NCBI RefSeq assembly: GCF_037201975.1
Contig: NZ_CP147520.1
Coordinates: 4,092,001-4,156,000 of the forward strand
Origin: Streptomyces sp. TG1A-60
GTDB lineage: Bacteria; Actinomycetota; Actinomycetes; Streptomycetales; Streptomycetaceae
Reading direction: 5' to 3'
DNA length: 64,000 bases
The translations under genes and the position numbers were made by a program. Under the pieces are notes generated by a model. That model was given only the letters and a program-made list of their open reading frames with translations, ran no database searches and had not been told where the DNA came from. This document shows, piece by piece, positions 41,014 to 41,146 of this stretch; the stretch's first letter is position 1; each line of letters starts with the position of its first letter.

Positions 41014-41146
41014 CGGGAGCTCGGAGCACCGGGCTGAGAGGGCGCTGACCTCCGCAGACGCGATGTTTCACGTGGAACATCGCGTGGCGGAAATCGCTGC
41101 GTCGACCGCTGAACCTGTTACCGGGTAATGCCGGCGTAGGGAGTAG
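41014..41146 (+). ncRNA. TPP riboswitch (THI element)
   Basis: Conserved core pieces are in order: GGAGC with GGGCTGAGAGGG (41031-41042), GACCGCTGAACCTG (41104-41117), GGGTAATGCCGGCGTAGGGA (41123-41142). It ends 10 bp before the thiC start. The facultative arm between CTGAGA and GACC is about 60 bases and contains a long hairpin made by a ParB-like palindrome (41059-41085). By family it senses thiamine pyrophosphate and represses thiC, probably at translation since the start codon is adjacent. Confidence 0.92.
41065..41078. other. parS variant, one mismatch, inside the TPP riboswitch
   Basis: GTTTCACGTGGAAC. One base from the ParB site, equal to the reverse complement of the 33598 variant. 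Flanks CGAT and ATCG extend the palindrome, so in RNA it forms a stable stem in the facultative riboswitch arm. Confidence 0.7.

Follow-up and report, generated by a model that had tools for sequence, protein, structure and literature searches.

A parS-type palindrome at the tip of the thiC riboswitch arm in many Streptomyces

Introduction

In many Streptomyces, a single short sequence upstream of the thiamine gene thiC seems to serve in two capacities. The leader RNA has a hairpin whose tip is, at the DNA level, also a parS-type site, and both roles appear to be preserved. We consider it probable, at roughly 0.75, that the P3 arm of the thiC TPP riboswitch is a structurally neutral host of a candidate ParB-loading site, and that both the 14-mer and the RNA stem are under selection. 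The sequence, the position, the conservation, the covariation and the wobble bias of the arm are established by the comparisons described below, which started from one locus in Streptomyces sp. TG1A-60. Throughout, the window refers to the whole stretch of 64,000 nucleotides that was analysed, corresponding to positions 4,092,001-4,156,000 of the 7.83-Mb genome.

Results

The thiC riboswitch and its P3 arm

The gene for phosphomethylpyrimidine synthase, thiC (41154-42980, forward strand), was identified by a family match of 977 bits (cut-off 650), and directly before it lies a TPP riboswitch aptamer (41003-41159, forward strand) that matches Rfam family RF00059 with 43.3 bits and an E-value of 1.5e-7, with 105 of the 105 model positions aligned. 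The score is below the Rfam gathering score of 54.3 bits, which we tentatively attribute to an insertion of 53 nt in P3, and the aptamer is therefore absent from the listing of a default scan. The locus is thus an example of a thiC riboswitch that such a scan misses. The sole entry that the default scan of the window returned was an unrelated sRNA, Scr3920 (RF02828, 34653-34777, 133 bits). The CUGAGA core motif is located at 41034-41039 on the forward strand, as read from the sequence and aligned to the Rfam consensus, and the 3' core was found by pattern in 183 of 190 collected leaders, some of these loci being incomplete.

In the consensus fold, positions 41041-41045 pair with 41099-41103 to form the P3 stem (columns 8-12 with 67-71), all on the forward strand. 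Inside it, the lower stem of the arm is predicted from the pairing of 41051-41055 with 41087-41091, two pairs of which are changed on both sides in the covariation count, followed by an apical hairpin of 12 bp with an ACGU loop at 41058-41085 (strands 41058-41069 and 41074-41085; -18.5 kcal/mol, z = -5.07), which is also placed by the fold and the covariation count. The tip of this hairpin, nested in P3, is the parS-type site GTTTCACGTGGAAC at 41065-41078, retrieved in a mismatch search. It differs from parS by one mismatch of the position 4/11 class, and is thus within the limit of at most one mismatch by which we recognise a parS site.

A preliminary description of this DNA had proposed that a parS-like palindrome with one changed base is also part of the riboswitch arm, and both parts of that proposal are borne out, the former by the 14-mer and the latter by the RF00059 match and by the hairpin nested in P3. 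The longer sequence that it reported, CGATGTTTCACGTGGAACATCG, is indeed present in the thiC leader, at 41061-41082, which is one base to the left of the coordinates then given (41062-41083). The hairpin is not GC-capped, as had been thought, since the loop on the 12 bp is ACGU.

The leader shares the CUGAGA core, the 3' half and the thiC context with the TPP riboswitch in general (THI element, RF00059), but differs from it in the long P3 arm tipped by a parS-type palindrome. The optional P3a stem described by Barrick and Breaker (2007; PMC2258182) is likewise an extension that the aptamer tolerates. However, P3a forms its own helix at a three-way junction, whereas the arm described here nests in P3.

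parS-type sites in the window and the genome

The window contains 13 parS sites at up to two mismatches, against 0.11 expected, and none of 100 shuffled windows had more than one such site. The whole genome holds 22 perfect parS sites and five with one mismatch, and the span from 3.99 to 4.34 Mb around the putative origin accounts for 22 of the 22 perfect sites and four of the five one-mismatch sites, the thiC site among them. A reversed control pattern gave three matches per strand across the genome at up to two mismatches. The single match to PF02195 (ParB N-terminal) in the genome is at 4,088,332 (E = 1.5e-34), 3.4 kb to the left of the window, and a cognate ParB is thus encoded alongside the sites.

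The arm site has in common with chromosomal parS of the ParABS systems a 14-mer that is at most one base away from GTTTCACGTGAAAC, a location in an origin-proximal cluster and a ParB-type gene nearby. It differs in being a candidate site placed within the covarying stems of a structured leader RNA. The general parS consensus TGTTNCACGTGAAACA given in a review (PMC7022226) is degenerate at the base equivalent to 4/11.

The variant GTTTCACGTGGAAC occurs three times in the genome, at 4056902, 4125598 and 4133065, all near the putative origin, and the last of these is the thiC site. The second corresponds to window position 33598, where the preliminary description had already placed the reverse complement of the variant and where the mismatch search recovered it (33598-33611), immediately before the start codon (ATG) of an ORF. 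One of the two non-thiC copies in this genome is apparently inside a coding frame, as read from the sequence. At 33595-33611, the copy adjoins the ATG of ORF 33094-33597 on the reverse strand, so that the changed base could have a second use at this place, in the initiation of translation. Elsewhere in the window, three perfect parS sites are packed into 87 bases (51035-51121), and the middle copy has six flank pairs when G.T is counted.

Distribution and history of the arm site

A search pattern blind to parS, applied to named genomes, retrieved at least 120 thiC leaders with arms of about 25-85 nt. Among the 120 leaders listed, the best distance of the arm to parS was zero mismatches in six, one in 59, two to four in none, and five or more in 55. 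The arm site, at no more than one mismatch, is thus present in 65 of these 120 leaders, while 0 of 6000 shuffled arms came as close, and the comparison of thiC leaders that the preliminary description had called for therefore finds the arm site conserved in many Streptomyces. The sites in this sample are GTTTCACGTGGAAC in 39 arms, GTTTCACATGAAAC in 14, perfect parS in six, GTTTCACGGGAAAC in five and GTTCCACGTGAAAC in one, and all 59 single mismatches are confined to three classes, 4/11, 7/8 and 6/9.

Across the genus, the pattern CTGAGAGG-N-TTTCACGTG matched 133 of 392 genomes, of which seven, when read by eye, had matches only outside thiC leaders, leaving 126. A second pattern added 16 genomes with other arm variants, which brings the count to at least 142 of 392, a figure that leaves out long arms with other variants. 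A loose pattern for parS in a TPP leader matched 28 of 296 genomes at the level of the class, 14 of them outside the genus, and nine of these 14 had loci, in none of which the 3' half of the TPP riboswitch was found. Among the matches listed in a literature search covering few subscription journals, no title or abstract opening presented parS in a riboswitch arm, and the papers listed yielded no measurement of ParB binding to the variant GTTTCACGTGGAAC.

The thiC tree comprises 103 tips from 121 leaders, 18 having been excluded because the thiC sequence was too short or had no ATG where expected. The presence of the arm site requires five changes on this tree, as compared to a mean of 33.8 and a minimum of 26 in 200 shuffles. 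In the main clade (support 0.98), which includes the window, 53 of 53 tips have the arm site, as do five of 50 tips outside it (L034, L050, L136, L103 and L134). The arm of L136 is much like those of the main clade, and this tip may be misplaced or its locus transferred. The other four carry a perfect parS in differently built arms, which suggests separate gains, and other lineages thus appear to have gained the arm site separately from the main clade. Arm sites of the main clade are nearly always exactly one mismatch away from parS, although the class of the mismatch switches.

Covariation and wobble in the RNA

For the covariation counts, we took from the collected loci, some of which had been found by searching for parS, every distinct arm that is exactly 48 or 81 nt long and has a site at no more than one mismatch. 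Neither the covariation cells nor the wobble cells are independent events. Double-changed cells number 20 in the 34 short arms, where shuffling gives 4.2 and none of 500 shuffles reaches 20. Changes on both sides occur at the three pairs flanking the 14-mer and at two pairs of the lower stem; the five core pairs are never changed on both sides, pair 4/11 being found as U.A and U.G. Seven of the double-changed cells, in the lower stem, belong to rows with GGAAC and 13 to rows with perfect parS, including all 11 cells next to the 14-mer. These perfect rows are absent from the tree and may be separate gains, so that what they show is less a change along a line of descent than flanks built complementary in separate lineages.

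In the 36 long arms (81 nt), two parS-like copies are joined in one rod. Its double-changed cells number 23, where shuffling gives 9.8 and none of 500 shuffles comes as high; when double-changed pairs are counted instead, 52 of 500 shuffles equal the rod. The leading pair of the rod connects position 11 of site 1 with position 4 of site 2, and is AU in 18 arms, GC in 11, GU in six and unpaired in one. We also considered a fold into two separate hairpins for these arms, which is disfavoured by having no double-changed cells as compared to the 23 in the rod, although the proportion of paired cells is slightly in favour of two hairpins (95.6% versus 94.8%).

The ratio of G.U to A.C cells on the thiC strand is 27:3 in the short arms and 73:20 in the long arms over all pairs, or 100:23 in total. 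Twelve of the A.C cells in the long arms are located at rod pair 39-71, probably an internal loop, and the ratio becomes 99:11 when three pairs that are probably loop, namely 39-71 and 40-70 in the rod and 28-51 in the hairpin, are set aside. Thirteen of the 27 G.U cells in the short arms are the 4/11 pair. The excess of G.U on the thiC strand is not predicted from a DNA palindrome alone.

Constraint on the 14-mer

In the main clade, the changes in the 14-mer number 19 and are confined to positions 4, 8, 9 and 11, leaving ten positions unchanged. On its 5' side, four junction positions have 7-15 changes and the five adjacent stem positions 1-2 each. In the 34 short arms, which were chosen for at most one mismatch, all but one of the four loop bases of the RNA are invariant. 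In the four of seven genomes with complete site lists (G000, G234, G208 and G228), 16 of 18 non-thiC sites with one mismatch fall, by our own reading, in the same three mismatch classes as the arms, and the base changed in GTTTCACGTGGAAC defines the commonest of these classes, with 11 of the 18. Together with its presence in 39 of the 65 parS-type arms listed, this agrees with the earlier proposal that the changed base is not noise. The genomes with a CACATG arm each have exactly one other CACATG site (7/7), at a distance of 45-50 kb.

The two copies in the 81-nt arms behave differently with respect to parS. Site 1 is exactly one mismatch from parS in 25 of 25 tree arms, whereas site 2 ranges from one to six. 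The numbers of changes, 16 at site 1 versus 28 at site 2, are not significantly different (sign-flip p = 0.16), and the asymmetry is therefore based solely on the distance from parS. In one arm, L156, it is site 1 that is no longer parS-like and site 2 that has one mismatch.

We considered whether the arm could be a conserved RNA stem and nothing else, its likeness to parS being incidental or a fossil. Such an explanation accommodates the covariation of the rod and the stems as well as the wobble excess on the thiC strand, and RNA pairing permits the changes at positions 4/11 and in the loop. The RNA alone would also allow some of what varies at 4/11 and 6-9. However, it leaves unexplained the bimodal distance to parS in the 120 leaders listed and the invariance of loop bases that are free in the RNA. 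Nor does it predict that the five core pairs lack double changes while three flanking pairs have them, that the mismatch classes match most one-mismatch sites elsewhere, or that four arms outside the main clade carry a perfect parS. We therefore regard it as unlikely.

The scarcity of perfect sites deserves separate consideration. None of the 53 main-clade tips has a perfect arm site, as compared to 78 of 96 non-thiC sites in the four genomes, which could reflect weak or no binding of ParB, a coupling to the RNA, or history. One explanation is that ParB bound to the arm hinders or tunes the transcription of thiC and thereby links thiamine synthesis to segregation or sporulation, with the deviation of one base tempering the binding. 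A possible parallel is found in Pseudomonas aeruginosa, where promoters adjoining two parS sites are reported to be repressed (PMC5521831). Perfect sites are, however, found in the arms of other lineages, as well as in a few arms that lie outside the set of tips and resemble those of the main clade. Such cross-talk seems to us quite unlikely.

parS-capped hairpins elsewhere

Hairpins capped by parS recur. Another in the window is located between convergent genes, where a perfect parS (10950-10963) caps a long predicted hairpin at 10931-10984 (-43.3 and -45.6 kcal/mol, z = -7.8 and -9.3 on the two strands). A second parS of this region, found in the mismatch search at 11023-11036, has one flank pair in this genome. 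Both sites are in the gap 10905-11051, between the gene for CCA tRNA nucleotidyltransferase (pcnA), which ends at 10904, and a convergent MFS-like gene, the best family match of which is under the cut-off, which ends at 11052. The hairpin resembles the terminator hairpins of convergent genes in its location and in its strong folding on both strands, but its apex is a parS and a search of the window copy found no T-run after the stem, so that we refer to it as terminator-like only.

In the best 30 of 61 genomes, which make up our set of pcnA loci, there are 59 parS sites downstream of pcnA. Perfect sites account for 58 of them, and the remaining one has a 4/11-class mismatch; a site with at least five complementary flank pairs occurs in 29 of the 30 regions. 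The arms vary but remain complementary, the paired fraction being 0.90 versus 0.49 when shuffled at offset -3 from the nearer site, and 0.90 versus 0.41 at offset -2 from the farther site, while some offsets are nearly invariant and without an excess of pairing. In a broader survey of 66 partly hand-picked sites (13 of the window, four regions of G208, 16 of G234 and 20 of G228), 14 have five or more flank pairs, as compared to 1.0% of random window positions, a background that in fairness should be somewhat higher since the base beside parS often follows the consensus. We rejected an extended palindrome as a general need of ParB, as 49 of the 66 sites have three flank pairs or fewer. Two single loci were also noted. 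In one, in G228 (L240, C1:5515520-5515733), 18 complementary flank pairs surround a perfect parS, from base 101 onwards; the other (L194), from another genus of the same class, has a perfect parS with flanks that by eye are complementary over a long stretch, hinting that parS-capped hairpins also exist beyond Streptomyces.

These sites bear on the explanation that a parS merely happens to fall in the thiC leader and that the RNA pairing is a by-product of the palindrome. By sequence and position, the arm site is a good parS. Yet the flanks are complementary beyond the 14-mer, the lower stem covaries, and the rod covaries between two different copies, while extended flanks are lacking at most of the parS sites surveyed. 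Furthermore, the G.U to A.C ratio on the thiC strand contrasts with 15:12 at the convergent pcnA hairpins. We find a purely DNA-based origin of the pairing distinctly unlikely.

Discussion

Shared ancestry without selection, in a young clade where the 14-mer has yet to decay, would agree with the concentration of cases in one clade and with the little-changed stem bases beside the 14-mer, but is very unlikely given that thiC third positions in the same clade have a mean of 5.7 changes with 19% unchanged, against which ten unchanged positions out of 14 in the core have a probability of about 3e-5 if both evolved alike, and that pairwise third-position distances reach 0.34.

We therefore favor the explanation that the P3 arm hosts a candidate ParB-loading site, and the evidence fits two functions on one sequence. 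According to this hypothesis, an origin-proximal parS with one mismatch would make up the apex of the P3 arm in the TPP riboswitch of the thiC leader. In the DNA, the arm site would bind ParB as one of some 25 loading sites around the origin. In the transcript, the palindrome would fold back on itself, making the arm longer while the ligand-binding core stays untouched, as the anatomy and the covariation of the arm suggest. Selection would then retain the 14-mer as a ParB site and the complementarity of the arm as an RNA stem. In the longer arms, where two parS-like copies are predicted to form the rod, one copy would be held within a base of parS and the other allowed to drift within the pairing rule. 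A palindromic protein site fits on the tip of a hairpin without breaking the hairpin, and the arm may for this reason be a structurally neutral host, with no effect on the response to TPP.

A more far-reaching version is that hairpin tips in transcribed regions of Streptomyces, such as the riboswitch arm and the terminator-like hairpins, are standard hosts of centromere sites, forming a class with dual roles in DNA and RNA, and that in the thiC leader the occupancy of the site by ParB and the folding of the riboswitch affect one another, the site being kept one base off parS to hold binding tolerable. We consider this broader scheme unlikely.

If the preferred reading is correct, the thiC leader is a natural case in which selection seems to act on one short stretch in two ways at once, maintaining a protein site in the DNA and a stem in the RNA, with the two layers partly separable by the statistics of the sequence. 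It offers the rule that palindromic sites on hairpin tips cost little structurally, and suggests a way for centromere sites to reside in transcribed regions of the Streptomyces chromosome. The encounter between ParB and transcription would thereby become testable in one leader.
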